A stretch of DNA of 38,170 nucleotides from Phycisphaerae bacterium (GTDB lineage Bacteria > Planctomycetota > Phycisphaerae > Phycisphaerales > SM1A02), in assembly GCA_002709295.1 (NCBI GenBank), contig PAQL01000031.1:97769-135938 (forward strand). Direction: 5' to 3'. Shown one piece after another: positions 1 to 17,747 of the stretch (position 1 is its first letter; the number at the start of each line of letters is the position of its first letter). The translations under genes were made by a program, and so were the position numbers. A model generated the notes under the pieces. It ran no database searches. It saw nothing but the letters and a program-made list of their open reading frames with translations, and was not told where the DNA came from.

Positions 1-908
1 ACGCCGGAAATCGCGCCCGCGGCCAGGGCCAGGGCGAGATGCCAGTGCGACAAGGCCCGCGCGGGCGGACGCAGCGACTGCTGCGCGGCCCCCAGGTGCG
101 TATCGAGCGCCGGCCAGAGTCCTTGCAGCCGGCCGACTTCATCGGCGAACTGCTCGGGCTCCATCGTCACGCGATAGAAGTGCTCCGGCTCGGCCGGGCT
201 GGCAGGGACGGTGTACGGCAGGAACGGCCATTCGAGCGGCAGCTCCTCGGCTTCGGCGTCGCCCTGTCCGATCTGCAGCAGCAGACCGCGCACGGCTTTG
301 ACCGACTCCGACGCCTGGTCGCGTTGACGAATCCTGCGACCGAAAATCACCACCTGCTTGAACTGCGTTTCCACCGCACGGTAGATGCGCAGGTCGGCGA
401 AGTGGCGCGTCAGCCATCCGACCAGCTCGGCGTCGAGCACGTAGTGCGGCACGATGAAGATCAGCACGCCACCGTACTGCAGCAGCGGCAGCGCGCGCTG
501 ATAGAACAGCTTTTCCAGCCGCGCACGGCCCTGGCCTTGATAGCCGATGTTGCCGTTCACGTCCTTGCTCAGGTCGCCATACGGCGGGTTCAGCCACAGC
601 AGCCCGAATGACTGGCGCGAGATCAGCGTGTCCATCAGGTCACCGTGGATGCAGCGATCGACCAGTTGCCGTGCGTGGCGGGCACGCTCGGCGTCGTACT
701 CGACGACGAAGGCCTGGACCTGCTCGCGCCCGAGGGCGTGGGCGGCTTCGGCAATCGCCACGCCTTCGCCGGCGCAGGGATCGAGGATGGACATGGAGCC
801 GGGAGACGGCGCCAATGCGGACAAGGCCCGCTCCAGCGTCGGCTCGTCGGTGGGGAAGTAGCCGTTACGGATGAAATTGCGCGCCAGGCGCGGAAACATG
901 AGTGCCAT
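1..908 (-). CDS. DUF6094-type N6-adenine methyltransferase-like protein (3' end beyond window)
   Basis: The frame stays open from an ATG at 908 to the window edge, giving 302 visible residues with no stop. AGGAGA lies just upstream of the ATG. The protein shows a class I SAM-binding motif LDPCAGEG (residues 42-49) and the adenine-methylase catalytic motif NPPY (107-110) inside LWLNPPYGD. This order, motif I then NPPY with a short N-terminus, fits gamma/beta-type N6-adenine DNA methyltransferases. The family carried by clc-type ICEs is usually labelled DUF6094. No target-recognition domain is obvious in the visible part, and no restriction gene is nearby, so a role in protecting or marking ICE DNA is inference. 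It is the last gene seen of the minus-strand ICE array; the C-terminus lies left of the window. Confidence 0.85.
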   Translation of the reverse strand, partial: MALMFPRLARNFIRNGYFPTDEPTLERALSALAPSPGSMSILDPCAGEGVAIAEAAHALGREQVQAFVVEYDAERARHARQLVDRCIHGDLMDTLISRQSFGLLWLNPPYGDLSKDVNGNIGYQGQGRARLEKLFYQRALPLLQYGGVLIFIVPHYVLDAELVGWLTRHFADLRIYRAVETQFKQVVIFGRRIRQRDQASESVKAVRGLLLQIGQGDAEAEELPLEWPFLPYTVPASPAEPEHFYRVTMEPEQFADEVGRLQGLWPALDTHLGAAQQSLRPPARALSHWHLALALAAGAISG

Positions 909-939
909 GGATTTCTCCTGATGATGGATGAGGGAAGGC

Positions 940-962
940 GGGCACGCGCGGCGCGCATGCCC
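940..962 (-). promoter_or_regulatory. Stem-loop in the leader of the methyltransferase gene
   Basis: A GGGCA / TGCCC and GCGC / GCGC stem with one C-A mismatch and a 3-nt loop sits between the stop of the upstream gene (974) and the start at 908. No U-run follows on the minus strand, so it is more a leader hairpin than a clear terminator. It is one member of the spacer stem-loop series seen across 900-7100. Confidence 0.45.
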
Positions 963-973
963 GTGGGGATGGC

Positions 974-1624
974 TCACGCCACACGCCGAAGCGGTGCGTT
1001 CGCGGCCAGTTCGTACTGCGTGGCACCGAGGGTGCCGTTGCGGATCAGCTCGCCCAGCGCCTTCGTCAGTGCCGGGACATCGAGGGCCAGCCGATGGCCT
1101 TCCAGCGGCCCGAGGGCCAAGGGAAGACCGGTCAGCATCCGCCGTGTCTGCAACAGCTCCAGCACGGTGTCGCGCCAGTGGTCGAGCAGTGGCAGCGGGC
1201 AGGTGTCCTGCACCAGCGTCCACAGCCGGTCGAGCCGGTGAGCGGAATCCCTGGGCAGAAGCGCCAGCGCGCTGGCGTTGGCCTTGTCTGGCTTCACGCA
1301 GCGACGATCGAACAGCCACACGTTCGTCAGCGAACCGAACAACGTTCGCCGATAGGCGCGGGTGATGCGCTTTTCCAGGTTCTCGACGTTGCCGACGAAG
1401 ACCGGGATGGATGCGCCCTGCTCGGTGATGACGTGGAACTGATCCAGTCCCTGTTCATCCCGGCCGAGGGTCAGGCGGGCGAGGAACTCCTGAACGGCGG
1501 TGTCGCGCGCCCAGATCGAGAGAAAGACGAGATTGCCCTGCTCGTCACCGACGCAACCGTCGGCCATGAGGTCGGGGCATTCGTCGATGCGGTACAGCGG
1601 TTTCGCGGAAGAAGGTGCAGGCAT
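974..1624 (-). CDS. Conserved ICE protein of unknown function (216 aa)
   Basis: I do not recognise a domain. The start at 1624 (MPAPSS) is preferred because AGAGGAC lies 6 nt upstream; an in-frame ATG ten codons earlier has no such site. The protein is soluble, with no signal peptide or membrane segment. It begins with a tyrosine- and acid-containing segment (YRIDECPDLMADG) and is rich in Leu and Arg in its second half. It lies in the array of small ICE genes with its own leader. A replication or modification accessory role is possible from context only. Confidence 0.75.
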   Translation of the reverse strand: MPAPSSAKPLYRIDECPDLMADGCVGDEQGNLVFLSIWARDTAVQEFLARLTLGRDEQGLDQFHVITEQGASIPVFVGNVENLEKRITRAYRRTLFGSLTNVWLFDRRCVKPDKANASALALLPRDSAHRLDRLWTLVQDTCPLPLLDHWRDTVLELLQTRRMLTGLPLALGPLEGHRLALDVPALTKALGELIRNGTLGATQYELAANAPLRRVA

Positions 1625-1708
1625 GGTGATGTCCTCTTGGAAATGAAGGAGCAACCACAGCCCGCGGGGCCATGCTCGCCCCGGTTGGGTGAAGGAAGAT
1701 GCATGCCG

Positions 1709-2074
1709 CTAGACAGCGCGTCCCGCGTGAAAGCGGTGAACCCGCTCGCGCCACTCGGAGCTTTGCACCGGCGCCATGTCGAGATAGCGCAGCGGGCACG
1801 AGTAGTAGTACGGATGCACGGACTCATCGAGGGACTTGTAGCCCCAATCGCCGCCCGAGCTTTCCAGCAGATGGCAGCCGATGTAGCAGACGGACTCACC
1901 GGCCGCGAGGCCCATGACGCCCGCCTGCCTGGCGGTGACGCGAACCACGGTCCACAGAACGTCGCCGTCCAGCGTGTGGTCGATGACTTCGCAGCAAGCG
2001 CGTTCGGACGCCTGCGGAGCGAGCAGCTCGCGGATCAACTGATCGCGCGTCTGACGAACGAAGGTCCAGCCCAT
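1709..2074 (-). CDS. Conserved ICE protein beginning MGWTF (121 aa)
   Basis: The ATG at 2074 follows AAGGAGA at good spacing; the longer open frame to 2299 has no ribosome site and overlaps the gene upstream. The 121-residue product is soluble and mixed alpha/beta. It contains two cysteine-containing patches (ERACCEVIDH and SVCYIGCHLL) and a tyrosine triplet HPYYYSCPL, which could suggest metal binding but is not a known motif to me. Proteins starting MGWTF recur in clc-type ICEs as uncharacterised genes. Function unknown. Confidence 0.78.
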   Translation of the reverse strand: MGWTFVRQTRDQLIRELLAPQASERACCEVIDHTLDGDVLWTVVRVTARQAGVMGLAAGESVCYIGCHLLESSGGDWGYKSLDESVHPYYYSCPLRYLDMAPVQSSEWRERVHRFHAGRAV

Positions 2075-2163
2075 GAGGGTCTCCTTGAAGAAAAGGCCGG
2101 AGCCCTCCCCGTCGGGGGAGAACCCCGGCGGGTGGCGGAATGCCGCGCAAGGCGGCGGATGGA

Positions 2164-2775
2164 TCAGGCAGCTTGGAGGTGCCAGTCCTGGGACAGCGGA
2201 GCGAACTCGTAGCCCAGCTTGTCGAGACGGTCGCGCTGCTGACGCAGCACACGACGATCCACGGTCGCATCGAGCTTTACGGTCTCGCCCAGGGGCCACA
2301 AGGCACCGAACAGCGCCGCGTCGTCTGCCTCGGCCGAGGCCGCAGCGGACACGGGAGCCGGTTCGCTGCCGAACGGCGTGGTATCGACCAGGGGATCGCG
2401 CGGACTGCGCGGCTTCGCCTTCGGCTTGGCCGGGGGCGTTGCCGGCGCGGGCGCCTGCGCTTCCTCGTCGATTGGATCGACTTCCTGCGGACTCAGCCGG
2501 CGGGCTTCGTCGCGGCTCAGGGCGTCGATGTTGGACAGGGTCATCCCGCCCAGATGGGCGCGGATCTCGATGACCATGCGGCCGTTGGCGTTGTACGTGG
2601 AGGGGCGAATCTCGACGATGACGAAATCACCGTCGTACTTGCCCTCGCGGTACTGATCGAGTTCGGCGTTCTTCACGACGAACTCGCCGATCGAGGTCGC
2701 CAGGCGGCCGACGTTGAAGTCGCCGTTCCTGCCGTGGATGGTCTTGATGGCCAGTTGGCCGGGAATGGTGATCAT
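2164..2775 (-). CDS. DUF3275 family protein
   Basis: A 203-residue protein starting at 2775 (MITIPGQLAIK), with GGAGACC upstream. The N-terminal ~95 residues form a compact domain with repeated beta-strand patterns (FVVKNAEL, GDFVIVEIRPS, GRMVIEIRAHL), followed by a Pro/Ala/Lys-rich linker (about 105-135) and a C-terminal coiled segment with many Arg/Asp. This is the DUF3275 family found almost only in ICEs of this group. The fold of the N-domain and the neighbouring STY4534 protein suggest a DNA-related role, but no biochemical function is established. A terminator-like stem-loop at 2803-2826 lies just upstream. Confidence 0.85.
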   Translation of the reverse strand: MITIPGQLAIKTIHGRNGDFNVGRLATSIGEFVVKNAELDQYREGKYDGDFVIVEIRPSTYNANGRMVIEIRAHLGGMTLSNIDALSRDEARRLSPQEVDPIDEEAQAPAPATPPAKPKAKPRSPRDPLVDTTPFGSEPAPVSAAASAEADDAALFGALWPLGETVKLDATVDRRVLRQQRDRLDKLGYEFAPLSQDWHLQAA

Positions 2776-2802
2776 GAAGGTCTCCTGCGGACGAAGAGAA
2801 GA

Positions 2803-2826
2803 CAAGGCCCCGGGGATGGGGCCTTG
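2803..2826 (-). terminator. Intrinsic terminator of the STY4534/DUF3577 gene, or leader attenuator
   Basis: A perfect 9-bp stem CAAGGCCCC / GGGGCCTTG with a 6-nt loop begins 4 bases past the stop codon at 2831 and is followed on the minus strand by TCTTCTCTTC. The short distance (28 bases) to the next start means it can act both as terminator and as part of the next leader. Confidence 0.65.
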
Positions 2827-2830
2827 CGGA

Positions 2831-3382
2831 TCAGAACGACTCGGCAACGGCCAATGCGGGGGCATCGGCAGCGTCGTCGGCAGCATCGGCGACGGGCCTG
2901 GAAGGCTCCGGTGCCGAGGCTTGCTGCGCGGCGGGCGCGTCGGACGTCACGGGGACTTCCGGGTCGCGCTCGTCGGTCTCGGTCGGCTTGGGTTCGGCCT
3001 TGTAGACGAGCTTGCCGTCGACCTTGATCCAACTGACGAACAGCAGACGGGCCTTGAGGCTCACACCCTGCTCGCCGGCACGCTTGCCCTTGGAGTAGGT
3101 GAAGGTGTCGGTCCACAGGTCGCCCATGCGGAAGCCGATCATCACCTTCTTCTCGGCGTCGACCGCCTGAATGCAGCGGCGCACCAGGTGCTGCGCTTCC
3201 GAACCCGATACGCGCGTGTCGAAACGCACATACGAGACGTCATCGCTGGGACCGTTCAGAGCCGCGATGTCGCAGGCCAGGAACGCATCGCCTTTCTTGG
3301 GCTTCACTTCGCGGATGCGATTGAGATACCCGAGGCCGGTGATGTGCAGATCGAAGTAGGACTTGTCGGTGGAAGTGGTCAT
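2831..3382 (-). CDS. STY4534 family ICE replication protein (DUF3577)
   Basis: A 183-residue protein starting at 3382 with CAGGAGA upstream. The first ~125 residues form the conserved domain: YFDLHITGLGYLNRIREV, then a segment that reads like an OB-fold (KKGDAFLACDIAALNG). The remainder is an Ala/Pro/Asp-rich acidic tail. The family is annotated as an ICE replication protein (DUF3577); the single-strand-binding-like pattern with an acidic tail suggests ssDNA or replication-partner binding, which is inference. Its leader is unusually long (343 bp) and carries copy A of the three-hairpin repeat, so expression is probably controlled at the RNA level. Confidence 0.85.
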   Translation of the reverse strand: MTTSTDKSYFDLHITGLGYLNRIREVKPKKGDAFLACDIAALNGPSDDVSYVRFDTRVSGSEAQHLVRRCIQAVDAEKKVMIGFRMGDLWTDTFTYSKGKRAGEQGVSLKARLLFVSWIKVDGKLVYKAEPKPTETDERDPEVPVTSDAPAAQQASAPEPSRPVADAADDAADAPALAVAESF

Positions 3383-3534
3383 GGTGAATCTCCTGGGAAC
3401 AATGAGGCGGAGACACACCCGACCCAGGCGGGGAAGGTGTGGAACCCCCGCGTGGGTTGATGGAACAGCTTGGAGGCATCGCCATCGAGAACCGATGGCC
3501 GTTCGCGCATGGATGCCGGTGCGAACTGGAGTGA

Positions 3535-3606
3535 TCAACGCGGTCGGAACCGCGTCGCAGCCTTGAAGATCGTGGCTGCCTGGGCATGTCGCTGACGGAC
3601 GTCAGC
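3535..3606 (-). repeat. Three-hairpin leader repeat, copy A
   Basis: Hairpin 1: ACGCGGT 3538-3544 with ACCGCGT 3549-3555; read on the minus strand its loop is UCCG, a UNCG tetraloop. Hairpin 2: GCAGCC 3557-3562 with GGCTGC 3574-3579; copies B and C have GCAGTC / GACTGC, a compensated base-pair change. Hairpin 3: GCTGAC 3591-3596 with GTCAGC 3601-3606. The loop word CTTGAAG and the spacer GGGCATG are shared with the other copies. Confidence 0.7.
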
Positions 3607-3694
3607 GGAACATGGCCGGAAGCGTCGCGCCAGGACGGCGCGCAGGCGAGCGGCAATCGGCACTCGCGGCTGTCCGCATTGCCGGGAAGAAAGA

Positions 3695-3713
3695 GGCCCC
3701 CGGAGCGGGGGCC
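3695..3713 (-). terminator. Intrinsic terminator after the DUF3085 gene
   Basis: A perfect stem GGCCCCC / GGGGGCC with a 5-nt loop starts 12 bases past the DUF3085 stop and is followed on the minus strand by TCTTTCTTCC. Confidence 0.7.
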
Positions 3714-3725
3714 AGGGATGGGCGG

Positions 3726-4091
3726 TCAGTTACCGCTGGGCGTGGGAGGAACCGCCTGCAGCGATAGGTGTGTCGCGGAGGCGGACACGTCGAGGTCGTC
3801 CTCGCTGCGCAGGATGCGCGCAAACACGCCCTCCTGCGGATCGAAGAACTCGCCGAAGTCGTCGCCACCGAACTCGGCGCGCGCCAGCTCCCACCAGTCA
3901 TCGAAGGCATCGACATCCGGGTTGCAGCCAGCGGCATAGGCGATGGTCTTCTGGCGACCATCGGGTCGGCGCTCGCCGCACTCGGCCAGGAAGTACACGC
4001 CCTGATCCTTGACCAGGATGACGCGGCATTGATTCGCCACCGCTTCGGCGAGCACGGGCCGCAGCTCCGTGCCTTTGAATCGAACAGTCAT
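3726..4091 (-). CDS. DUF3085 domain-containing protein
   Basis: A 121-residue protein from an ATG at 4091, with CTGGAG about 10 nt upstream. The whole chain matches the pattern I know for DUF3085: an N-terminal LRPVLAEAVA segment, ILVKDQGVYFL, then CNPDVDAFDDWWELAR and an acidic FGGDDFGEFFD stretch. It is strongly acidic, which fits a DNA-mimic or protein-partner role, but that is a guess; the family function is unknown. It sits between two intrinsic terminators (4122-4146 and 3695-3713), so it looks monocistronic. Confidence 0.85.
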   Translation of the reverse strand: MTVRFKGTELRPVLAEAVANQCRVILVKDQGVYFLAECGERRPDGRQKTIAYAAGCNPDVDAFDDWWELARAEFGGDDFGEFFDPQEGVFARILRSEDDLDVSASATHLSLQAVPPTPSGN

Positions 4092-4121
4092 GGGTGTGAT
4101 CTCCAGGGGGCAGGAAAAGAG

Positions 4122-4146
4122 GCTTCCCGCCGCGAGGGCGGGAAGC
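4122..4146 (-). terminator. Intrinsic terminator after the 265-aa ICE gene
   Basis: A perfect 10-bp stem GCTTCCCGCC / GGCGGGAAGC with a 5-nt loop, 10 bases past the stop at 4157, followed on the minus strand by CTCTTTTCC. It also lies in the short leader of the DUF3085 gene. Confidence 0.75.
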
Positions 4147-4156
4147 TGCTGTGAGA

Positions 4157-4954
4157 TCAGTGCCGGATAGCCTTACGACACGACAGGCACTGCACGCGGA
4201 TGCGCCGCCAACTCCCGTCGTCGATCAGCCGTTCCAGCGTCTCGCCGAGGGTGTCGAAGAACACCTCATCGACCCGTTCGACCAGCTCGCCGTCGCGGTG
4301 CAGCTCCACCGCGTAGAGGTCGAGGCCACGCTCATACAGCACGGTGACGCGACCCTGGAACTTCGTCGTGGCGACGGTGAAGCCGATGGCCGGCGGCGTG
4401 CGGATGATGTCGGCGGGCAGCGGATCGACCCAGGTGATGTCCCGCGCGCCGGCATCCACCAGCATGTGGGTGACGCGCCGGAAACCGTCGGGAGCGGGCA
4501 ACTGCTCCAGTTGGTCGACCAGTTCCTGCAGCTCGGGGCAGCGCGGCTCGGGGATCGGCAGCTTCGCCGGTGCGGACCCGAGCACGAACCGCTTCACCGT
4601 GTAGGGCTGGCCGTCGGCGGTGAACTCGGTCTGCTCCTCGGGCGTGTCCGCCCGCTGACCGTCGAAGCGGCGTCTGACATAGGGTTCGACCTGCACCTTG
4701 GCGCCCTCGTCGGGCACTTCGGTCACGAGCGTGCGATCGAGCACCGCGAACTCGGCTCGTCCCGTCTTGACGACGATGGCCTCGTCGGTGGTGGCGATGA
4801 CCTTGCCCTCGAAAGGCTTCGGGTCGATGTGAAAGCCCAGCGTCGAAACCTTGGGCTGGCCGTCGAAGATGTTGAATTTGAACGAACGGACGTTGGAAGG
4901 CACATGACCGACAACGAGCGTCGGCATCTGTGCGCGGATGGCTTGGGTATCCAT
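4157..4954 (-). CDS. Conserved ICE protein of unknown function (265 aa)
   Basis: The start at 4954 (MDTQAIRAQ) has AAGGAG about 8 nt upstream. The open frame continues to 6037, but that part runs through a structured leader and a shadow frame of the gene beyond it, so the longer version is rejected. The protein is soluble with alternating beta-strand and loop segments (TLVVGHVPSNVRSFKFNIF near the start, PAIGFTVATTKFQGRVTVLYERG near residue 205). It ends with a Cys-containing basic tail (QCLSCRKAIRH). No catalytic signature is visible. It is a standing member of clc-type ICEs. Its leader carries repeat copy B. Confidence 0.8.
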   Translation of the reverse strand: MDTQAIRAQMPTLVVGHVPSNVRSFKFNIFDGQPKVSTLGFHIDPKPFEGKVIATTDEAIVVKTGRAEFAVLDRTLVTEVPDEGAKVQVEPYVRRRFDGQRADTPEEQTEFTADGQPYTVKRFVLGSAPAKLPIPEPRCPELQELVDQLEQLPAPDGFRRVTHMLVDAGARDITWVDPLPADIIRTPPAIGFTVATTKFQGRVTVLYERGLDLYAVELHRDGELVERVDEVFFDTLGETLERLIDDGSWRRIRVQCLSCRKAIRH

Positions 4955-4976
4955 GGGGAGACTCCTTGTGGCAACC

Positions 4977-5011
4977 AAGGGACTCCCGCCCGCAAGGGAG
5001 GTCTGTCCCTT
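4977..5011 (-). promoter_or_regulatory. Two-part stem-loop in the leader of the 265-aa gene
   Basis: AAGGGAC (4977-4983) pairs with GTCCCTT (5005-5011), enclosing a second stem (CTCCC / GGGAG). It lies 23 bases before the start codon, between repeat copy B and the ribosome site. Confidence 0.5.
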
Positions 5012-5054
5012 GAGGGTGAGGTGGATGGACGCGGGTGCGCCCGGAGAACGAAGC

Positions 5055-5125
5055 AACCAGCACGGCGAACCGCGCCGCAGTCTTGAAGGTCTCGACTGCC
5101 TGGGCATGCTGCCGGCAACGCCAGC
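5055..5125 (-). repeat. Three-hairpin leader repeat, copy B
   Basis: Hairpin 1: GCACGG / CCGCGC (5060-5065 with 5070-5075; one mismatch), loop UUCG on the minus strand. Hairpin 2: GCAGTC 5077-5082 with GACTGC 5094-5099. Hairpin 3 at 5108-5125: GCTG / CAGC plus CG / CG around a 4-nt loop; sequence differs from copies A and C while the fold is kept. Shares CTTGAAG and CTGGGCATG with the others. Confidence 0.65.
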
Positions 5126-5210
5126 GAACATGCGGCCAGCGTGCGGCACATGGCGGCGACCATCCGTTGGGAATCGGCAATGCGCCGGCACCGCGTTCCG
5201 CGAAAAAGAA

Positions 5211-5230
5211 GAGCCCCGACGTGGGGGCTC
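5211..5230 (-). terminator. Intrinsic terminator after the 238-aa ICE gene
   Basis: A perfect stem GAGCCCC / GGGGCTC with a 6-nt loop, followed on the minus strand by TTCTTTTTC. It starts 14 bases past the stop at 5245. This is the clearest terminator of the left array. Confidence 0.82.
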
Positions 5231-5244
5231 GAATGGGTTGCGGG

Positions 5245-5961
5245 TTACTCGTCGTCGTAGAGCGTCAGCCCGTCCAGCACTGGCGCGTCGGCATCGAACA
5301 CCAACATGCGAACGTCGGCGAGCGCAGCCAGGTGCAACACTTCCACGAGGGACTCCGGCACGCCCTTGGCCCGATGCTCCTGCCGCAGCTCTTCGGCGGT
5401 GATGCCCTCGACATGCTGCAGGTTCGCATCCGTCCAGGGCGTGGCGATCAGCTTCACGCCGACCGCCGGGCTGTAGGGAATGCGGAAGGCCACGAACAGA
5501 AAACCGCTCGGCGTGGCGATGTCCGCCAGTTCGGCGAGGAAGCGACCGGCCTCCTCGGTGATGTGCGCCGAACTGATTTCCCAGGCACGGCTGTAGAACC
5601 CGGTCTCGAAGCGCAGGCGGCGTACCACCTCGCGCGCGGCTTCCTCGGAGTAGGTATCGCCGACGTGCAGCGGCTGGCCGGCTTCTTCGGCCATGACTGC
5701 GTAGACGAGGTTTCGGGCGATACCGTGGCTGGGGCACTGCGCGTCCAGCTCGGGCGGCACGTTCTGGCCCTCGGTGATCAGCGCGAAGTCGTCGCAGAAG
5801 ACGCAGGCATGGCGCTCGACCTGGTTGTCCGGCAGATGCGACTGCGAGACGTGCAGCGGCAGATAGCTCAGCGGGCAGTCGTCGTCGTAGGAAATCGCCA
5901 GCAGCCGCTGCACGGACAGGCCATCGTAGCCGCGGACGAAGGGGTTTTTGGAATGAGACAT
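5245..5961 (-). CDS. Conserved ICE protein of unknown function (238 aa)
   Basis: Starts at 5961 (MSHSKNPFVRGYDG) after TGGAGGAA. The soluble protein has an N-terminal cysteine/histidine cluster (DDCPLSYLPLH, ERHACVFCDDF, then CPSHG) that could hold a metal, followed by a helical middle and a C-terminal acidic region ending in YDDE. I do not recognise a domain with confidence. Its spacer has the usual stem-loop (AATCCCC / GGGGATT), and the gene is closed by a strong terminator, so it is probably a single transcription unit or the last gene of one. Confidence 0.78.
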   Translation of the reverse strand: MSHSKNPFVRGYDGLSVQRLLAISYDDDCPLSYLPLHVSQSHLPDNQVERHACVFCDDFALITEGQNVPPELDAQCPSHGIARNLVYAVMAEEAGQPLHVGDTYSEEAAREVVRRLRFETGFYSRAWEISSAHITEEAGRFLAELADIATPSGFLFVAFRIPYSPAVGVKLIATPWTDANLQHVEGITAEELRQEHRAKGVPESLVEVLHLAALADVRMLVFDADAPVLDGLTLYDDE

Positions 5962-5985
5962 GGGATTCCTCCAGCAGAGGATGGC

Positions 5986-6003
5986 CGAGGCAATCCCCTG
6001 CCG
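5986..6003 (-). promoter_or_regulatory. Leader stem-loop of the 238-aa gene
   Basis: An AATCCCC / GGGGATT stem with a 4-nt loop (approximate bounds) about 25-40 bases before the start at 5961; another member of the spacer stem-loop series. Confidence 0.45.
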
Positions 6004-6135
6004 GGGATTGAACCCCAGCGAGTGGATGAAGTGGCAACCGGTCAGCCGGCCGCGGCGTCGGGCCGCCCTGGCGCCGGGCGGTGCAGGTCAGTGGAAGATG
6101 GTGATTCGGGACATGGCCGCTCCTGCGAAAGGAAG

Positions 6136-6171
6136 GAGGGACATGGCCCCGAACGGGGACGCATGTCCCTC
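6136..6171 (-). terminator. Long stem-loop after the 130-aa gene (terminator or leader)
   Basis: GAGGGACATG (6136-6145) pairs perfectly with CATGTCCCTC (6162-6171) around an inner CCCC / GGGG stem. A pyrimidine tract (CTTCCTTTCG) follows on the minus strand. Immediately after comes CAGGAG and an 8-codon open frame (6112-6089). Confidence 0.6.
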
Positions 6172-6211
6172 GTGGGGTGGGATGAAAGAACGGTGGGTTG
6201 CCAGGCGCGGC

Positions 6212-6604
6212 TCACCAGCCGTTGTAGTGCAGCGTGAGGTCGGCGATGACCTGGCGCCGTTCCAGATCGAGGCCGCCGAAGTCGGACAGCCCCTCGAAGC
6301 CGCAACGCTTGAGCATCGCGCCACCCTCGCGGGCGTTGTAGAAGCTCACCATCGCGGACAGGAACATGCGTTGACCGCTGCTCAGCACGCCCAGGGCGTC
6401 GTTGAGCATCAGCATGTTGGGCCGCAGATCCCACTTGGTGGTGGCACGCTGCAGACCTTCGCGTGTGCCGTCGCCGAACCACTCGTGGCCGGCGATCTGC
6501 GCGCCGCGCTTCCAGGCCTCGAAGAAGGCCTGCGGTGCAGCGTCGAAGTGCGCCTGTTCCAGCGCCATCTGATCGAGCACGTCTTCGGGCAAAGACAGAT
6601 TCAT
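6212..6604 (-). CDS. Conserved ICE protein of unknown function (130 aa)
   Basis: Starts at 6604 (MNLSLPEDVLDQ) after AAGGAG. The product is small, largely alpha-helical and soluble, with segments FFEAWKRGAQIAGHEWFGDG and MLMLNDALGVLSSGQRMFLSAMVSF. No known motif is visible. Only 26 bases separate it from the stop of the 78-aa gene upstream, without a hairpin, so the two are likely co-transcribed under the leader that carries repeat copy C. Confidence 0.78.
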   Translation of the reverse strand: MNLSLPEDVLDQMALEQAHFDAAPQAFFEAWKRGAQIAGHEWFGDGTREGLQRATTKWDLRPNMLMLNDALGVLSSGQRMFLSAMVSFYNAREGGAMLKRCGFEGLSDFGGLDLERRQVIADLTLHYNGW

Positions 6605-6630
6605 GAGAGGACTCCTTGAAGGGTGGGGAA

Positions 6631-6867
6631 TCAGGGCTGAGCGCGCTGCGTCCAGGCATGGGTATCCAGGGCGCGCTGTGCTGCGAGGTGGGTGGGGAAA
6701 TACTCGACGGACTCCCGCGATACCGGGCCTTCGTCGTCTTGCGTGCCGATGTATTGGCCGGCCGCGCTGCGCAGCACCTGTAGCGGCAGACGCTTGCCGG
6801 TCCAGGCCAGCGCCAGCGCACCACTGCGCACTGCGGTTGCAGAGGAAGATGCGGAAGGTTCAGACAT
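6631..6867 (-). CDS. Small ICE protein of unknown function (78 aa)
   Basis: The ATG at 6867 follows CAAGGAG at 8 nt spacing; the frame is open upstream to 6945 but without a ribosome site. The protein has a Ser/Ala-rich first 15 residues, then a short globular part (ALAWTGKRLPLQVLRSA, then YFPTHLAAQRALDTH). It contains neither cysteine nor a membrane segment. Its leader holds repeat copy C, so this two-gene unit shares RNA-level control with the STY4534 and 265-aa genes. Confidence 0.72.
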   Translation of the reverse strand: MSEPSASSSATAVRSGALALAWTGKRLPLQVLRSAAGQYIGTQDDEGPVSRESVEYFPTHLAAQRALDTHAWTQRAQP

Positions 6868-6997
6868 GCCGTGCTCCTTGGTGGGTCGGGGAGCACGCAT
6901 CCCACAGGGGATGGGGTTCCCCTCGGGTGGTTGAGAAAAGTGCATCGTCGCCAGACCGGCGAGCGTCCGCGGTGGGCGATGCGAAGCGGACTGGATC

Positions 6998-7069
6998 GGT
7001 CAACGCGGCGAACCGCGTTGCAGTCTTGAAGACCGAGACTGCCAGGGCATGCCGCTGACGACTGTCAGC
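6998..7069 (-). repeat. Three-hairpin leader repeat, copy C
   Basis: Best preserved copy. Hairpin 1: CAACGCGG 7001-7008 with CCGCGTTG 7013-7020, perfect 8 bp, loop UUCG on the minus strand. Hairpin 2: GCAGTC 7020-7025 with GACTGC 7037-7042. Hairpin 3: GCTGAC 7054-7059 with GTCAGC 7064-7069, 4-nt loop. Confidence 0.7.
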
Positions 7070-7077
7070 AACGCATG

Positions 7078-7646
7078 GGTGAGGATGGGCGCGAAGCATG
7101 GCTGCCGTCGCAGGGAAAACCGAATCGCGGACGGCCCGCTTTAGGGCAGGCCCGCGTCACGGGACAAGGCAAGGACCAGGGCGCCGAAGGCCACGCGGGC
7201 CTTCGGCTGGAGAGGAAGGAAAACCACCTGTGGGCTGCGTCAGCGCAGGCCGTCGTCAAAGCCGTTCGCTGCGTCAGCAATCGCACCCGGCCCGTTTCGT
7301 GGCTGGGGCCGGAAACCTCTGGCGTGCATCCACACACAAAGGGAGCCCGTTGTTCCGCCGGCGGGCACCGGCACGGAATACCCTCGGCCCAAGTGGCCTC
7401 CTCACGGCTCGCGCGGCGGCAAGGCGTCAGGAAGCCCCTCGTGGCCGAGGCAAGGCACACCGATCAAGGGAATGGCGGCGGGCGCGATTCGTGGAGCAAT
7501 GACCTTCTCGCCCCGTCGCCCGATGCCGGGCAGACGGGGCGAGCACACCGTTGCAGAAGGAGACGCGCGCTTTGGAGTCCCGCGCGGTGCGGGACGTTTG
7601 CCTCGCCGCCAGTGAAGTGGCCGGCGCGGCAGGGGAAAAGCGAGGA
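7078..7646 (-). other. 570-bp gene-free, stem-loop-rich region downstream of topB
   Basis: I see no credible protein here; open frames on both strands lack ribosome sites and family features. It holds strong inverted repeats: 10 bp GCCGAAGGCC / GGCCTTCGGC (7183-7207); an 11-bp stem CTCGCCCCGTC / GACGGGGCGAG enclosing GCCCG / CGGGC (7507-7543); GTCCCGC / GCGGGAC (7577-7595). An 11-bp direct repeat GCTGCGTCAGC occurs at 7234-7244 and 7268-7278. Together with repeat copy C this makes about 780 bp between the topB stop and the next start. It could encode a structured RNA or a long 5' leader. Confidence 0.5.
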
Positions 7647-9662
7647 TCAGGACGCCTTGGAGGCAGCGCGCCGCTTGCGCGGTGCGCTGCGCCGGCCCGT
7701 CGGGGACTCGATCGGCAGCGTGCCCTTGCAGTCCGGGTAGCGCGAGCAGGACCAGAACGCGCCGCTCTTGCCCGTGCGCTGCTGCATCGGTGTGCCGCAC
7801 TGCGGGCAGGCCGGCGCCGGCGGCAGCTTGAGCGAGAGCGTTGCGCCGCGGTACTGCTGCACGAGCTGGCCGACCCACACGGACTGCTTCTCGATGAAGG
7901 TGTCCAGCGCCATCTGGCCGGCCTCGATCATGTCGAGTGCCTGCTCCCACACCGCCGTGGTGCCGGGGTCGGCGATGGCCGAGGGCACCGCGTCGATGAG
8001 CGTGAATGCCGCGTCGGAAGCGCGGACGGCGCGGCCTTTCTTGACCAGGTAGCCGCGACCGATCAGACCGTTGATGATGTTGGCGCGTGTCGCCTCGGTG
8101 CCGATGCCGGTGGTATCTCGCAGCTTCTGTTTCAGCCGCGGGTCGGTCACGAACTTGGCGACGGTCTTCATGGCCTTGATCAGCTCGCCCTGCGTGTAGG
8201 GTTTGGGCGGCAGCGTCTTCAGCGCCTTGAGATCCACCTTTCCGACCGGGCAGGACAGGCCCGCATGCAGGGCGGGCAGCACCTGGCTGCGCTGCGCATC
8301 CTCGCCATCGGCATCGTCCGGCCCCGGCGTCGCCAGCACCTCGCGCCAGCCGGTGACGGCGATCTGCTTGCCCACGGCCGCCAGCGACTGACCGCCGCAC
8401 GAGAACTGCGCCATCGTGCGGTCGAACTCATGGTGTGGGAGGAACTGCGCGAAGTAATGGGCGCGGATCAGCCGGTAGACGGCCAGCTCCTTCTCGCTCA
8501 TGGCCGACAGGTTGGCGGGTTCCAGCGTCGGGATGATGCCGTGGTGAGCCGACACCTTGCCGTCGTTCCATGCACGCGAGCGCAGTTGGCGATCCAGGCG
8601 CTCGATCAGCGGCCGCAGGCTGGGGTCGGTCTTGACCAGGCTGTCGAGTACGGTCGGCACCTCAGCCAGCATGCTCTCGGGCAGGTAGCCCGAATCCGAG
8701 CGCGGATACGTTGTCGCCTTGTGCGTCTCGTACAGCGCCTGGGCAATGTCCAGCGTCTCCTGCACGTCGAGGCCCAACTGCTTGGAGCACACTTCCTGCA
8801 GCGTGCCCAGGTCGAACGGCAGCGGCGGCCCTTCGCGAACGCGCTCGGTTTCTACCGACAGCACCTGGGCGGAGCCGGCCGTGCGCAGGCGCTCGGCGGC
8901 CTGCTGCGCCACCGGCTGTTGCAGGCAGCGGCCCGCATCGTCGGTGCTGCCTTGCGGCGGCGTCCAGCTTGCGACGAAGGGCTGGCCTGCATGCGATAGC
9001 GCAACCTCGATGGCCCAGAACGGTACGCAGACGAAGCGCGCGATCTCGCGATCGCGGTCCACGACCAACTTCAGCGTCGGCGTCTGCACGCGCCCCACCG
9101 ACAGCACGCCGCTATAGCCGGCCTGGCGCCCCAGCAGTGTGAACAAGCGGCTCAGGTTCATCCCGATCAGCCAGTCGGCGCGCGATCGGGCGAGTGCGGA
9201 GAAATACAGCGGCAGCGTCTCGGCGGACGGCTTGAGCGCACCCAGCGCTTTGCGGATCGACGCATCGTTGAGCGCCGACAGCCACAGGCGCTGAATCGGC
9301 CCGCGGTAGCCGCATAGGTCGATGATCTCGCGGGCGATCATCTCGCCCTCGCGGTCGGCGTCGGTCGCTATCACCAGCTCGCCCGCCTTGGCGACGAGCT
9401 GCTGCACGACCTTGAATTGCGCCGCGGTCGCCGCCTTGGGCTCGACACGCCAACGCTCAGGAAGAATAGGCAGTTGCTCGATGGCCCAGCGCTTGTATTG
9501 TTCGCCGTAGCCTTCGGGCGGAACCGCCTCCACCAGATGACCGATGCACCAGGTCACGACGACACCCGCGCCGCTGTAGCAGCCGTTGCCGCGTTGGCCG
9601 GCGCCCAGCACACGGGCGATGTCCTTGCCCTGGGACGGCTTCTCGCACAGAAACACGCGCAT
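7647..9662 (-). CDS. topB: DNA topoisomerase III (ICE type)
   Basis: 671 residues from an ATG at 9662 with AAGGAGG upstream. It is a type IA topoisomerase that cleaves and passes single DNA strands, probably resolving ICE replication or transfer intermediates. The Toprim domain at the N-terminus holds the EKPSQGKDIA start and the metal-binding DADREGE (101-107). The active-site tyrosine is in TTYPRSD (Tyr319). The gate region includes LSVGRVQTPTLKLVVDRD (about 187-204). A C-terminal zinc ribbon has CPQC...CSRYPDC (Cys 619, 622, 639, 645), then a Lys/Arg tail, as in plasmid and ICE TopB. It follows ssb with a 297-bp spacer that carries one of the 21-bp palindromes, so it may have its own promoter as well. 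Confidence 0.95.
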   Translation of the reverse strand: MRVFLCEKPSQGKDIARVLGAGQRGNGCYSGAGVVVTWCIGHLVEAVPPEGYGEQYKRWAIEQLPILPERWRVEPKAATAAQFKVVQQLVAKAGELVIATDADREGEMIAREIIDLCGYRGPIQRLWLSALNDASIRKALGALKPSAETLPLYFSALARSRADWLIGMNLSRLFTLLGRQAGYSGVLSVGRVQTPTLKLVVDRDREIARFVCVPFWAIEVALSHAGQPFVASWTPPQGSTDDAGRCLQQPVAQQAAERLRTAGSAQVLSVETERVREGPPLPFDLGTLQEVCSKQLGLDVQETLDIAQALYETHKATTYPRSDSGYLPESMLAEVPTVLDSLVKTDPSLRPLIERLDRQLRSRAWNDGKVSAHHGIIPTLEPANLSAMSEKELAVYRLIRAHYFAQFLPHHEFDRTMAQFSCGGQSLAAVGKQIAVTGWREVLATPGPDDADGEDAQRSQVLPALHAGLSCPVGKVDLKALKTLPPKPYTQGELIKAMKTVAKFVTDPRLKQKLRDTTGIGTEATRANIINGLIGRGYLVKKGRAVRASDAAFTLIDAVPSAIADPGTTAVWEQALDMIEAGQMALDTFIEKQSVWVGQLVQQYRGATLSLKLPPAPACPQCGTPMQQRTGKSGAFWSCSRYPDCKGTLPIESPTGRRSAPRKRRAASKAS

Positions 9663-9789
9663 GAAGCCTCCTTGGAAATGTGCGGTTCATCGGATGGGCG
9701 TCAGCTTGGCGGGGCCAGGAGATGCCGGCAGCAAGGAAGCCGATTGATGCAGACACCGCTTTGTGATCGGCAGGTGGTCTGTTGCTGCA

Positions 9790-9807
9790 GCGGTGCGCGT
9801 ACACCGC
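9790..9807 (-). promoter_or_regulatory. Hairpin in the topB leader
   Basis: GCGGTG / CACCGC with a 6-nt loop, extended by TGCTG / CAGCA with a bulge, about 130 bases before the topB start. Confidence 0.4.
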
Positions 9808-9873
9808 AGCAGGAGCTGGCACAGCAAGAGCGTCGTTTCGGGAGGACGGCTGGAACTCCGTGGACGACCTTGG

Positions 9874-9894
9874 AGCTATCCCCCGGGGATGGCT
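9874..9894. promoter_or_regulatory. 21-bp palindrome, copy 1 (upstream of topB)
   Basis: Arms AGCTATCCCC and GGGGATGGCT around one central base, one mismatch. Lies 212 bp before the topB start, between ssb and topB. Nearly identical to the copies at 11793 and 12828, which suggests one DNA-binding regulator. Confidence 0.6.
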
Positions 9895-9959
9895 CGCTGG
9901 TGCATCGCGGGCGTATGACGGTTGCTACAGCCGCCCTCGGGGGAACGGCGATGGGCGAA

Positions 9960-10343
9960 TTACTGTCCGCCGGCCGGCTTGGCGCTGAGCGCCACCGACT
10001 CGATGCGGTACGGCAGGATGCCCACGCGCCGCGCCTCGACCTTGAACGTCACGCGCTCGTTCTCGTCGGCGTCCTCCCATTCGTCGCGCACGGTGCGGCC
10101 CTCGACCAGCACCCGCATACCTTTCTGGTACAGCGTCTTCCAGTGCTCGGCGTCGCGGTGCCACAGCTCCACGGGCGCCCAGAAGCCGCCGCGATCTTCG
10201 TACTCGCCGTCCTTCTTCGGGATCGGGTTGTCGAAGTAGACGTTCAGGCGAAGCAGCCGGCGCGGCTCGTCGTTGCCGTTCGGAAATTCGCGGTAGTCCG
10301 GCGCAGAACCGATGTTGCCCTCGCCGACGAAGTGCGTGCTCAT
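9960..10343 (-). CDS. ssb: Single-stranded DNA-binding protein (ICE type)
   Basis: 127 residues, start at 10343 after CAAGGAG. One OB-fold domain: an N-terminal MSTHFVGEGNIGSAPDYREF, strand LLRLNVYFDNPI, then WAPVELWHRDAEHW and MRVLVEGRTVRDEW, all in the usual SSB positions. It binds ssDNA during ICE replication or transfer. The chain ends in SAKPAGGQ and lacks the acidic DDDIPF-like tip that chromosomal SSBs use to recruit partners. The start codon overlaps the DUF3158 stop as ATGA, so translation is coupled. TopB lies downstream. Confidence 0.92.
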   Translation of the reverse strand: MSTHFVGEGNIGSAPDYREFPNGNDEPRRLLRLNVYFDNPIPKKDGEYEDRGGFWAPVELWHRDAEHWKTLYQKGMRVLVEGRTVRDEWEDADENERVTFKVEARRVGILPYRIESVALSAKPAGGQ

Positions 10344-10888
10344 GGTGACTCCTTGGTGGTGGGTGGAACGGACGCGGTATGCCCGTGGACGCGCCGCAGG
10401 TAAGCCGCTTCGGCCTGCGCGGCCTTGTTGGCGCATTCCAGGGCTTGGCGAGCGATGCTGTGGGTCAGACTGATCTGCATGTTCAGCACGATGCGCTGCA
10501 GTTCGATCGCGTACAGCTCGTCGATCAGCGAGGCCGGCGTCGCGGGGTTGGCCAGCAGGGCCTCCCACAACGCCACGCCCATGGAGGAACGGTCGAGGTT
10601 GCGCCAGCGCAGGAAGGTCGTCCCTGCGCCAGTGGCCTGCTGGGCCAGTTGCACGTCGAGCAGACTGAATGGATAGGCGCGCGCCTGGGGCAGCACGCGC
10701 CGCTGCGCCAGGCCAATCACGTCGTCGCGCAGCGCTGCGCACTGGCTGGCCCAGGTCTCCAGACTCCCCTTACCCTTAAAAGGCTGTAAAAGGCCTTTTA
10801 GGTAGCCTGCGTGTTCCAGCCGCTGGAAGTCCGCCTGTTCCAGCGCCACGAAGCGCGTGGAGTGGCTGATAGGGGGCGATGCTGTCAT
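10340..10888 (-). CDS. DUF3158 family protein
   Basis: 182 residues, starting at 10888 with MTASPPISHSTRF. The start overlaps the PFL_4669 stop as ATGA, and its own stop overlaps the ssb start the same way, making a tightly coupled three-gene block. The product is alpha-helical and soluble, with FVALEQADFQRLEHAGYLKG at the N-terminus and LYAIELQRIVLNMQ in the C-terminal helix. The DUF3158 family occurs in this ICE class next to ssb. Its function is unknown; an SSB or replication accessory role is suggested by the coupling only. Confidence 0.85.
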   Translation of the reverse strand: MTASPPISHSTRFVALEQADFQRLEHAGYLKGLLQPFKGKGSLETWASQCAALRDDVIGLAQRRVLPQARAYPFSLLDVQLAQQATGAGTTFLRWRNLDRSSMGVALWEALLANPATPASLIDELYAIELQRIVLNMQISLTHSIARQALECANKAAQAEAAYLRRVHGHTASVPPTTKESP

Positions 10889-11673
10889 GCGCCAACACCC
10901 TCATCGCCCGCCGCACCATCGGCTGCGCCACCCGTGGAAGCCTGCGCATCGGGCACGATGGCAGGCGCAGCAGGCGGCGTGCCGGGCTTGTTCGTCCGCC
11001 GCGCGATGGGTGGCGCGAAGCGCGAGCGGCGCGTGCCTTCCAGCACGTCCTGCGGCAACTCGCCGAACTTCTCCAGCGCCGCTCGCGCCGCCGCGTTCTT
11101 CGCCGCGAAGTCGTCGCGCGTCGTGCCCGAGTAGCGGTACTGCTGGGCCAGCGAGAACAGGCTGCGCAGCGCGTGCGCACCATCATTGAGCCAGCGCTCC
11201 AAGGTGCTGCGGTCGATCAGCGCCGTGTGGTGCGCCAGGATGAGTTTGCGTGCCAGGTCGTCGTAGTCGGCCAGCAGATACACCGCCATGAAGCCGAGCT
11301 GGGCGTTCACGAACAGCGGCAGCTTCACCGGCTGCACGTTCATGTTCTCGCCCAGCGACAGCGCCGATGGCACGTCGGCCAAGGCCTGATCCACCTGGTC
11401 GCGCAGGGTCTGCAGACGGGTCTTGGTGTCGGCGAGCTTGTCCTCGATCCGCAACATCCACCAGTCCGAGTACGGGTCGTCCTGCTCGGCGCCGCGCTTC
11501 ATCTTGTTCATGGCGCCGATGAAGCCGTTGAGACCGATGATGCCTGGGCGCCCCTCGGTCGGCGCGCGGCCGTGCCAGATGCGCGAAGCGTGGTGCGTGT
11601 GCAGCGTCAGCGACATCGCGCTGCGCAGCGATCCGAGATTCAGTTGCAGGGGTTCTGTGCGTTCGTTGGCCAT
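10885..11673 (-). CDS. PFL_4669 family integrating conjugative element protein
   Basis: 262 residues from an ATG at 11673. The N-terminal ~200 residues are the conserved part: LNLGSLRSAMSLTLHTHHAS, RIWHGRAPTEGRPGIIGL, then helical segments. The last ~60 residues are a Pro/Ala-rich tail beginning RTNKPGTPPAAP. The family is a signature of ICEs of the PFGI-1/clc class; its molecular role is not known. First gene of the PFL_4669-DUF3158-ssb block, with a 21-bp palindrome 120 bp before its start, a likely promoter-control site. Confidence 0.88.
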   Translation of the reverse strand: MANERTEPLQLNLGSLRSAMSLTLHTHHASRIWHGRAPTEGRPGIIGLNGFIGAMNKMKRGAEQDDPYSDWWMLRIEDKLADTKTRLQTLRDQVDQALADVPSALSLGENMNVQPVKLPLFVNAQLGFMAVYLLADYDDLARKLILAHHTALIDRSTLERWLNDGAHALRSLFSLAQQYRYSGTTRDDFAAKNAAARAALEKFGELPQDVLEGTRRSRFAPPIARRTNKPGTPPAAPAIVPDAQASTGGAADGAAGDEGVGA

Positions 11674-11861
11674 GGGAGCGACTCGCGGTGAATTGGCGAG
11701 TCGCCAGCATCGGCATCGGCCGGAAGGCTGTCAGTCAACAAACCGCAGCCCATGCGCGCCCGGTTTGTTCCGCGCGGAAGGCTGTGTGTGCCGGCTATCC
11801 CCTGGGGATAGCTCGGCGGATGTGTTCGCGGCTCGCGCGGAGGGGAGACCGCGTTGCGGGG
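11674..11861 (-). promoter_or_regulatory. Intergenic control region before the PFL_4669 gene
   Basis: Besides the 21-bp palindrome it holds two hairpins near the start codon: GACTCGC / GCGAGTC (about 11680-11703) and CAAACCG / CGGTTTG (about 11738-11767). Confidence 0.45.
11793..11813. promoter_or_regulatory. 21-bp palindrome, copy 2 (upstream of PFL_4669 gene)
   Basis: Arms GGCTATCCCC and GGGGATAGCT around a central T, one mismatch at the outermost pair. It is 120 bp before the start at 11673. Confidence 0.65.
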
Positions 11862-12716: not shown

Positions 12717-12827
12717 GTCCATCGTCGGCCGGGCTCGTGCGTGGCTGTCCTCGTCTGATTCACAGGCGACAGTTTCGCCTGTCATTCGGCGGGCGACAAT
12801 CGAGCGCGGCGGAAAGATGTCTGTTCC

Positions 12828-12848
12828 AGCTATCCCCTGGGGATAGTC
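12828..12848. promoter_or_regulatory. 21-bp palindrome, copy 3 (upstream of LOTUS gene)
   Basis: Arms AGCTATCCCC and GGGGATAGTC around a central T; the outer two pairs on one side deviate. It lies 112 bp before the start at 12716, just after the STY4528 stop. A perfect hairpin ACAGGCGA / TCGCCTGT is also present between it and the start (about 12766-12786). Confidence 0.65.
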
Positions 12849-12852
12849 AACA

Positions 12853-14046: not shown

Positions 14047-14048
14047 GG

Positions 14049-14609: not shown

Positions 14610-14626
14610 GCGGGAGCCTCCTGCGC

Positions 14627-16291: not shown

Positions 16292-16514
16292 TCTCCTGCG
16301 CTTGCCGGTCGGCGCGGCGAAGCTGTGCGCGGGCATTGCGGTCGGCACGGTTGTCGCTCGCCGTCGAGCTGGTGTAGATCGACGCGCAGCCTTGCTTCGT
16401 GAATTTCAGGTGCCCGCCGGACGTGCGAACCACGCGCCAGCCTTCGCCCAGCGCGAACTCGATCAGCGCGCGCAGCCGTTCGCGGCCGCGCGCCAGTTCA
16501 TGCGCGCTCGCCAT
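16278..16514 (-). CDS. HicA-like small protein inside the par operon
   Basis: 78 residues from an ATG at 16514. The segment LIEFALGEGWRVVRTSGGHLKFTKQG followed by a Thr/Ser-rich turn and an Arg-rich helix fits the double-stranded-RNA-binding-like fold of HicA/YcfA mRNA interferases. The histidine in SGGHLKF sits where the HicA catalytic histidine lies. The gene overlaps parA by 17 bp and parB by 14 bp, so it is expressed with them. No HicB antitoxin is adjacent. It may therefore be a domesticated RNA-binding member rather than a toxin; that is inference. Confidence 0.78.
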   Translation of the reverse strand: MASAHELARGRERLRALIEFALGEGWRVVRTSGGHLKFTKQGCASIYTSSTASDNRADRNARAQLRRADRQAQENGRG

Positions 16515-17364: not shown

Positions 17365-17404
17365 GAGCTTCTCCTCGTCGAATGGCATGAACCGAGAAGA
17401 AGCG

Positions 17405-17623: not shown

Positions 17624-17698
17624 GAGAGGCACTCCTTGACGCTCGATGGCGTTGTTCAGAAAGTGCCTCGCATTCCACATGCTGCTGCTGCGGAATTC

Positions 17699-17733: not shown

Positions 17734-17747
17734 CTGCTGTTACAGGC

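Follow-up and report, generated by a model that had tools for sequence, protein, structure and literature searches.

The window analyzed here is a stretch of 38,170 nucleotides (nt) from a Phycisphaerae bacterium (assembly GCA_002709295.1, contig PAQL01000031.1, positions 97,769 to 135,938), and it carries genes of an integrative and conjugative element (ICE) in which three copies of a structured RNA, designated A, B, and C, lie ahead of three separate genes. All three are full-length representatives of radC RNA (Rfam RF01754), a known RNA family. A cmscan search of the window at the Rfam gathering cutoff of 40 bits returned three RF01754 matches, all on the minus strand and each covering model positions 1 to 149 of 149, with E values from 3e-25 to 4.4e-18. 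Rfam types the family as Cis-reg, and a core model of our own, R1, recognizes the same three places:

3476..3624, minus strand: copy A, a class I radC RNA in the leader of the DUF3577/STY4534 gene (RF01754 131.7 bits, E 3e-25, full length; R1 match 3532-3628, 85.7 bits)
4986..5142, minus strand: copy B, a class II radC RNA (without the second pseudoknot, PK-B) in the leader of the 265-amino-acid (aa) gene (RF01754 100.2 bits; R1 match 5054-5146, 91.2 bits)
6942..7087, minus strand: copy C, a class I radC RNA in the leader of the 78-aa gene (RF01754 118.6 bits; R1 match 6997-7091, 83.1 bits)

A preliminary description of this DNA had placed the copies where we find them, although the stretches that it quoted are part only of an approximately 150-nt minus-strand element. 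It had likewise named the genes behind them correctly:

2831..3382, minus strand: DUF3577/STY4534 family ICE replication protein (NF040584 and PF12101)
4157..4954, minus strand: 265-aa gene (a weak KfrB match, below the cutoff)
6631..6866, minus strand: 78-aa gene (no Pfam match at E ≤ 0.01; the start at 6866 was chosen by eye and was not called by the gene caller)

The description had proposed a search of Rfam, which does return a known family, but the motif names that it offered, after DUF3577 and DUF3085, do not apply, and no such Rfam match is present in the window. A permissive scan of positions 1 to 20000 added two chance-like matches below the cutoff, one to a microRNA and one to a snoRNA family, and listed no other cis-regulatory family at E ≤ 5. 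STAXI RNA (RF01728), a family considered below, gave no match in the window at the gathering cutoff and none at E ≤ 5 in positions 1 to 20000. In the openly accessible literature searched, no paper was found on the "radC RNA motif," the "radC motif," or radC RNA together with riboswitches; the main text of Weinberg et al. 2010, in its accessible part, mentions radC RNA in one table row (PMC2864571).

Fold, selected strand, and distribution of radC RNA

The core of the element consists of three hairpins, and its conservation was assessed in an alignment (A2) of 30 rows picked by eye for diversity, in which H4 was left out of the pair counts because the alignment slips there. In these 30 sequences 95.2% of cells are paired, 14 of 23 core pairs show double changes (equalled in 0 of 500 shuffles), and sliding the partner by one to three columns drops pairing to 20-45% (maximum, 45.3%). 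In a larger alignment (A5, described below), all 7 pairs of hairpin 3 have double changes. The details first noticed in the three window copies fit this picture: the words CTTGAAG and GGGCATG (CTTCAAG and CATGCCC in the RNA) are found in each, one helix carries the compensated change between GCAGCC/GGCTGC and GCAGTC/GACTGC, and the hairpin 3 of the preliminary description is rebuilt in copy B, from GCTGAC/GTCAGC to GCTGGC/GCCGGC. The UNCG loops that it reported do occur in all three copies; they are not a defining feature of the family, being present in 36 of the 82 distinct elements scored.

Two pseudoknots, which are absent from the Rfam model, are supported by covariation; they are new here, though they may have been drawn before. 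In the cmscan display, the RF01754 model has neither, and three bases of the 3' domain are assigned to other pairs; pseudoknots are beyond what a covariance model can represent. In copy A these are as follows:

3533..3571, minus strand: PK-A, GATC 3571-3568 (hairpin 2 loop) with GATC 3536-3533 (after hairpin 3)
3475..3526, minus strand: PK-B, GTTCGC 3526-3521 with GCGAAC 3506-3501, crossed by GGCATC 3517-3512 with GATGCC 3480-3475

PK-A joins the four bases before TTCAAG in the hairpin 2 loop to the bases just 3' of hairpin 3, and among the 84 distinct elements in which TTCAAG occurs, 81 carry the complement. It covaries among the forms GATC/GATC, GGTC/GACC, GACC/GGTC, and AACC/GGTT; in a 53-row alignment (A5), all 5 of its pairs show double changes and 89.8% of cells are paired, the outermost pair being weak (20 of 46 unpaired). 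The first helix of PK-B takes the forms GTTCGC/GCGAAC, GTCCGC/GCGGAC, GCTCGC/GCGAGC, and GATCGC/GCGATC, and the crossing helix takes the forms GCATCC/GGATGC, GCATCG/CGATGC, and GCTTCC/GGAAGC; as copy A has a GGCATC form shifted by one base, this second helix was counted on rows without the shift. A5 comprises 53 references, minus 7 judged by eye not to be class I, with 2 copies from the window and 5 from plasmids, the latter unfiltered, added, and A6 (39 rows) omits from it 13 rows with the shifted form and one near-duplicate (L016:7810). Selection with a PK-B filter, or origin in the window, accounts for 48 of the 53 rows in A5 and 34 of the 39 in A6, so that the pairing of PK-B there, at 100%, is largely built in; the pass rate among elements picked by gene alone is the fairer measure. 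By that measure PK-B is found in 13 of 14 leaders of DUF3577 (shuffled mean, 2.4), 12 of 12 of radC (3.4), 8 of 11 of the 78-aa gene (1.8), and 2 of 4 of the 130-aa gene (0.6). It falls below the shuffled mean before the 265-aa gene (3 of 17 against a mean of 4.8) and the 216-aa gene (2 of 8 against 3.0). As the pass rates split by gene family in this way, we distinguish a class I (copies A and C and the radC copy) from a class II (copy B), for which PK-B was rejected; the 3' half of copy B is unlike that of copies A and C.

The wobble pairs of the core bear on which strand is under selection: G-U pairs number 205 against 30 A-C pairs over the distinct rows of two alignments (A3 and A4) that Infernal had fitted to the sense-strand model, and 48 against 12 in the MAFFT alignment A2, made without such a fit. 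Since G-U outnumbers A-C, the structure is most likely kept in the transcript, with the sense RNA as the selected strand.

Relatives were collected from at least 116 stretches in genome contigs with an exact core pattern. R1, built from 30 sequences, was run against 124 sources and gave 121 and 60, in all 181, matches at E ≤ 0.01; removal of three low matches (L020, L091:7024, and L009) left 178 elements in 107 loci, and 103 of the 116 pattern loci have at least one element among the matches listed. Wherever a locus has two or more elements (45 of 45 loci), all are on one strand. A same-strand gene is called next for 169 of the 178, the other 9 having no later called gene, in some cases at the edge of the locus. 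Six gene families, labeled from sequence and gene order, follow 154 of these 169: the 265-aa family (39), DUF3577 (38), radC (29), the 78-aa family (19), the 216-aa family (15), and the 130-aa family (14, a count affected by the 78-aa gene often escaping the caller), with 15 others. The distance from core to start codon is narrow in most of them, with medians of 99 nt for the 265-aa family (range, 92-103), 150 nt for DUF3577 (146-2007, with one outlier), 136 nt for radC (128-162), 130 nt for the 78-aa family (103-176), and 99 nt for the 216-aa family (98-130). In the window, the R1 coordinates give 149 (A), 99 (B), and 130 nt (C), where 105 to 155 nt had been stated. The covariance-model search that had been suggested as a check yields 178 elements, 169 of them ahead of a called same-strand gene, and the claim of a selected RNA structure acting in cis is supported by the Rfam match, the covariation, the G-U bias, the single strand in 45 of 45 loci, and the start codon spacing. 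These data speak neither for nor against the shared ligand or protein that the description had considered. Among random genomes, DUF3577 is present in 1 of 397, the window's genome itself, and RF01754 in 3 of 392, of which the window's genome alone is above the cutoff; being so rare, the two do not allow a comparison of genomes with and without the RNA. Viral contigs gave 0 matches to the core pattern. R1 also picked up divergent radC RNAs, scoring 38-62 bits and in several cases arranged in tandem, ahead of further genes in plasmids and Serratia (L011 13592-16530, L061 1180-4115, L149, and L153).

The family also extends beyond the three genes of the window, as a fourth copy lies on the same strand of the same ICE, about 40 kb off, at C31:61533-61683. 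The gene called downstream of it (C31:61441-60947) is named radC from the homologous place in plasmid pKF715A, which is upstream of a gene annotated as radC. This copy sits within a row of type IV secretion system genes and overlaps the 3' end of the upstream gene; behind its gene, the gap contains a terminator as well as a promoter-like motif, and terminators occupy the gap after this gene family, recognized by order, in 18 of 20 loci.

Predicted transcription signals around the units

The gene groups behind the elements are bounded, and in part interrupted, by intrinsic terminators, and motifs resembling promoters precede the elements themselves:

3655..3681, minus strand: promoter-like motif 5' of copy A, CAATGCGG-N11-TGCCGATT, kept in most of 21 aligned DUF3577 leaders
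about 5172-5199, minus strand: similar promoter-like motif before copy B
about 7113-7143, minus strand: similar promoter-like motif before copy C, TAAAGCGGG...TTCGGTTTT
3685..3713, minus strand: intrinsic terminator between the DUF3085 gene and copy A, hairpin followed by TCTTTCTTCC, dG -16.9
5201..5230, minus strand: intrinsic terminator between the 238-aa gene and copy B, hairpin followed by TTCTTTTTCG, dG -13.5
4112..4146, minus strand: intrinsic terminator between the 265-aa and DUF3085 genes, tail end 20 nt from the next start; present in 19 of 24 homologous gaps
2793..2826, minus strand: intrinsic terminator between the DUF3577 and DUF3275 genes, 17 nt to the next start; 22 of 27 homologous gaps
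2086..2129, minus strand: intrinsic terminator between the DUF3275 and 121-aa genes, 11 nt to the next start; 15 of 17 homologous gaps

The bipartite motif lies between the previous terminator and the element and reads AAtgcGG-N10/11-TGCCGATT in leaders of the A and B types, with the variant GCAAAnaGG...CGGTTTT in the 216-aa type. The radC-type leaders, that of the fourth copy included, are without it, and a sequence resembling it precedes the genes after radC (C31:60887). In three distant loci (L149, L150, and L153), by eye, a promoter of the TTGACA type ends right at the element. We presume a resemblance of the TGCCGATT part to a -10 sequence of the sigma-28 type, and the bipartite motif is a putative promoter. 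A possible counterpart comes from ICEclc, for which a 27-bp motif is described as common to eight of nine bimodal promoters, P88400 and P58432 among them, and, in the accessible text of the report, as not found in other ICEclc regions (PMC9286271). From position and spacing, our guess is that the two motifs are the same; this may fail for copy B because the ICEclc region that we map to it counts among those free of the motif.

With a detector that requires a hairpin plus a U-tail, sense terminators were found in 74 of the 215 intergenic gaps that lie downstream of elements (antisense, 0). The corresponding figures are 5 of 78 in other same-strand gaps of the same loci (antisense, 0), a category that includes loci ending before an element, and 5 of 127 in host gaps (antisense, 1), a weak yardstick, since at convergent host gene ends the detector recovers a terminator in only 3 of 32. 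Gaps upstream of elements have them in 53 of 83 cases (antisense, 4), and the leaders themselves in 2 of 98 (antisense, 0). Counted per gene-family pair, terminators occur in 17 of 50 downstream pairs against 2 of 51 others (Fisher P = 8e-5), so that in the main collection there is an excess of internal terminators downstream of radC RNA. Across 107 downstream gaps with a terminator (a redundant set), the median distance from tail to start is 21 nt, and it is below 40 nt in 68.

Possible processive antitermination and its rivals

Several parallels are suggested by RNAs that act on transcription in other mobile elements. Internal intrinsic terminators have been called a good indication of a processive antitermination system, with conAn, put, and EAR as described cases (in the consulted portion of PMC8955417), and the canT RNA of Tn916, like other RNAs of conjugation operons, is reported to let the polymerase pass internal terminators (in the accessible part of PMC11658703). 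Judged by the published descriptions of put of phage HK022, EAR, conAn2 of pLS20, and canT, radC RNA would resemble them in lying early in the transcript of units that in part hold internal terminators; unlike them, it is present in several copies per element instead of one per long operon. Internal terminators are present in units A and B and in 17 of 50 gene pairs, and are absent between the genes of unit C; the promoter-like sequences just upstream would place the RNA near a 5' end, but the fourth copy has genes of the same row on either side. Taking these findings together, we tentatively propose that radC RNA might be an RNA-based processive antiterminator. The three copies are parts of the 5' leaders of distinct gene groups in an ICEclc-like element. 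A promoter-like motif stands close upstream of each copy, and A and B are also preceded by the terminator of the previous gene. The sense RNA folds into hairpins H1 to H3 closed by PK-A, followed in copies A and C by PK-B, as covariation supports, and it would help RNA polymerase pass the terminators between the downstream genes. Between these terminators and the start codon behind them there seems to be no space for a promoter; the genes that they split would be transcribed from the regulated promoter, and stray transcription would halt at the first terminator. The transcription start, the contact with the polymerase, and the read-through are what we infer here. If true, many short units would bear their own terminators and yet obey the transfer competence switch: an RNA mechanism would silence ICE genes against stray transcription, and one switch would open several units.

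Published data on ICEclc bear on this proposal. Transcripts covering 85934-88400, 83350-84835, and 68241-81655 are induced in stationary phase (log2 ratios of 6.5, 6.3, and 4.0-5.7, respectively), reverse transcription-PCR and Northern blots join the open reading frames (ORFs) 83350-84835, and the array shows a slope break near 86,000, according to the accessible sections of the report (PMC2892462). Judged by the listed sizes, ORF88400 would correspond to the 78-aa gene, ORF84835 to the 265-aa gene, and ORF81655 to the 216-aa gene; ORF83350 would fit DUF3577 only roughly. On this mapping by size and position, the joined transcript 83350-84835 would span unit B into unit A across two terminators, a point in favor of the proposal.

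Several observations, the two limits on the comparison gaps given above among them, weigh against antitermination. No terminator is found in 141 of the 215 downstream gaps; unit C has none in 18 gaps between the 78-aa and 130-aa genes and none in 21 between the 130-aa and 238-aa genes, and the 216-aa unit has them in 6 of 28 gaps and then in 0 of 17. The left part of the window's ICE, mostly far from the elements, has terminators in 3 of 17 gaps (antisense, 0). The ICEclc region UR84835 showed no reporter promoter activity though RNA sequencing coverage rises there, for which the authors suggest too short a fragment or processing (available text of PMC9286271); by our mapping it would be the region of copy B, and its data would favor RNA processing or stability at least as much as antitermination. 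A further set of 19 distant DUF3577 loci, 18 from plasmid records and one from an Escherichia coli chromosome, points the same way. Rfam finds radC RNA in five of them (L149, L150, L151, L153, and L160). Seventeen could be scored for the gap after DUF3577, leaving out L160 (no annotation) and L167 (genes touch): with radC RNA a terminator is present in 1 of 4 (L151, at 133 nt; none in L149, L150, and L153), and without it in 8 of 13 (L152, L154, L155, L156, L158, L159, L161, and L165), at 14, 19, 21, 25, 30, 65, 83, and 85 nt from the next start. An earlier-found locus with radC RNA, L011, has a terminator 18 nt before the next start, which makes the count with radC RNA 2 of 5. Within this small distant set, the presence of terminators follows the ICE family rather than radC RNA. 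Because terminators after DUF3577 are commoner without radC RNA, we gave antitermination a lower weight and more to its two main rivals.

Two of the eight terminator loci without radC RNA, L154 and L156, have STAXI RNA, which in three enterobacterial elements occupies the place of radC RNA ahead of DUF3577:

L154 3169-3320, L156 3202-3346, and L157 3158-3308: STAXI RNA (Rfam) in the DUF3577 leader slot

Terminators may accompany a broader class of leader RNAs that has two named members. STAXI RNA is described, in the accessible part of the source, as a series of repeated pseudoknots, often with UUCG loops, in the vicinity of genes for DNA-manipulating proteins (PMC2864571). It shares the DUF3577 leader slot with radC RNA in these three loci and differs from it in fold. 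It is conceivable, though we think it rather unlikely, that two unrelated folds do one job, RNA-only processive antitermination in Gram-negative conjugative elements, comparable to conAn and canT; if so, STAXI RNA would be tied to the same question. The STAXI matches fall in three "places" per plasmid record, which may be its internal repeats. Matches to small RNAs occur beside transposase genes in two other loci, isrC in L158 and psRNA2 in L161.

One rival holds that the element is a ligand- or protein-sensing leader controlling translation of the single gene behind it, one signal thereby setting several ICE proteins. The Cis-reg type, the narrow spacing to the start codon in most families (e.g., 92-103 nt for the 265-aa gene), the highly conserved unpaired words, and a Shine-Dalgarno toggle, detailed below, beside the DUF3577 start in 21 of 27 leaders speak for it. 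The toggle is not tied to radC RNA, however, masking of the Shine-Dalgarno region is at most 1.8 kcal/mol below shuffles and in no family clearly below host genes, and we see no common expression platform, the 3' halves of classes I and II being different; this leaves a sensing leader a doubtful alternative. We regard with comparable doubt the idea that long transcripts are cut and that the folded RNA shields the new 5' end as a processing or stability element. Coverage in ICEclc rises at UR84835, 73676, and 89247 without matching reporter activity, where the authors suspect processing (as given in the available text of PMC9286271), the array slope break falls where copy B is placed, and the fourth copy lies inside a gene row, overlapping the end of the gene upstream. 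Stabilization leaves the U-tailed hairpins directly before start codons unexplained, and no processing is needed where TTGACA-type promoters seem, by eye, to adjoin the element (L149, L150, and L153).

A hairpin in single-stranded DNA (ssDNA), serving on the strand that enters the recipient as an Frpo-like promoter or as a protein site, has in its favor the neighboring ssb and DUF3577 genes, the one orientation in 45 of 45 multicopy loci, and the mention of ssDNA for the STAXI motif by Weinberg et al. 2010 (accessible part of PMC2864571). Like radC RNA, the Frpo and ssi single-strand promoters combine hairpins with conjugation-related genes (in the portion of PMC11541004 available). The wobble bias, however, points to the transcript: with the transferred strand assumed to be the template, 205 G-U against 30 A-C pairs is the reverse of what is predicted. 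Further, promoter-like sequences stand outside the element, and UUCG loops stabilize RNA, not DNA (accessible part of PMC2864571). An ssDNA promoter, once considered as the principal explanation, is made unlikely by the wobble bias, and an ssDNA role of either kind now appears very improbable. The least probable account is that of a generic leader structure copied along with its units and having weak or no present function; that 154 of the 169 elements with a called next gene precede just six families would suit it, but double changes in 5 of 5 PK-A pairs, 7 of 7 hairpin 3 pairs, and 14 of 23 core pairs imply selection on the fold.

Further features of the window

The DUF3577 leader contains a second structure, separate from radC RNA:

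3383..3460, minus strand: near-start pseudoknot/Shine-Dalgarno toggle of the DUF3577 leader

In it one 3' strand is able to pair either with a hairpin loop or with the Shine-Dalgarno region. Six shuffled sets gave this arrangement in 2 or 3 of 27 leaders, and it occurs with radC RNA, with STAXI RNA, or with neither. The same test is passed before the 238-aa gene (5961) and DUF3275 and failed by the leaders of the 78-aa and 265-aa genes. No Rfam match is listed at the site in the window scans, and the MAFFT alignment was too poor for pair counts. Translation of DUF3577 is probably set separately by this predicted toggle at its start codon. A general helix masking the Shine-Dalgarno region was rejected, as mean energies in five leader families lie 0.3-1.8 kcal/mol below shuffles and in none clearly below host genes.

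The genes run, in transcriptional order, ICE_PFL4669, DUF3158, ssb, ORF 9662-7647 (by gene order, a putative topoisomerase III), copy C, the 78-aa, 130-aa, and 238-aa (DUF5983) genes, copy B, the 265-aa gene, DUF3085, copy A, DUF3577/STY4534, DUF3275, and the 121-aa and 216-aa genes.

3726-4091, minus strand: DUF3085 gene between copies A and B, its start 20 nt behind a strong terminator

Several genes of the window's ICE (L007, C31:89269-97501) have ambiguous bases, with X in the translation, and the assembly of this ICE may mix near-identical copies.

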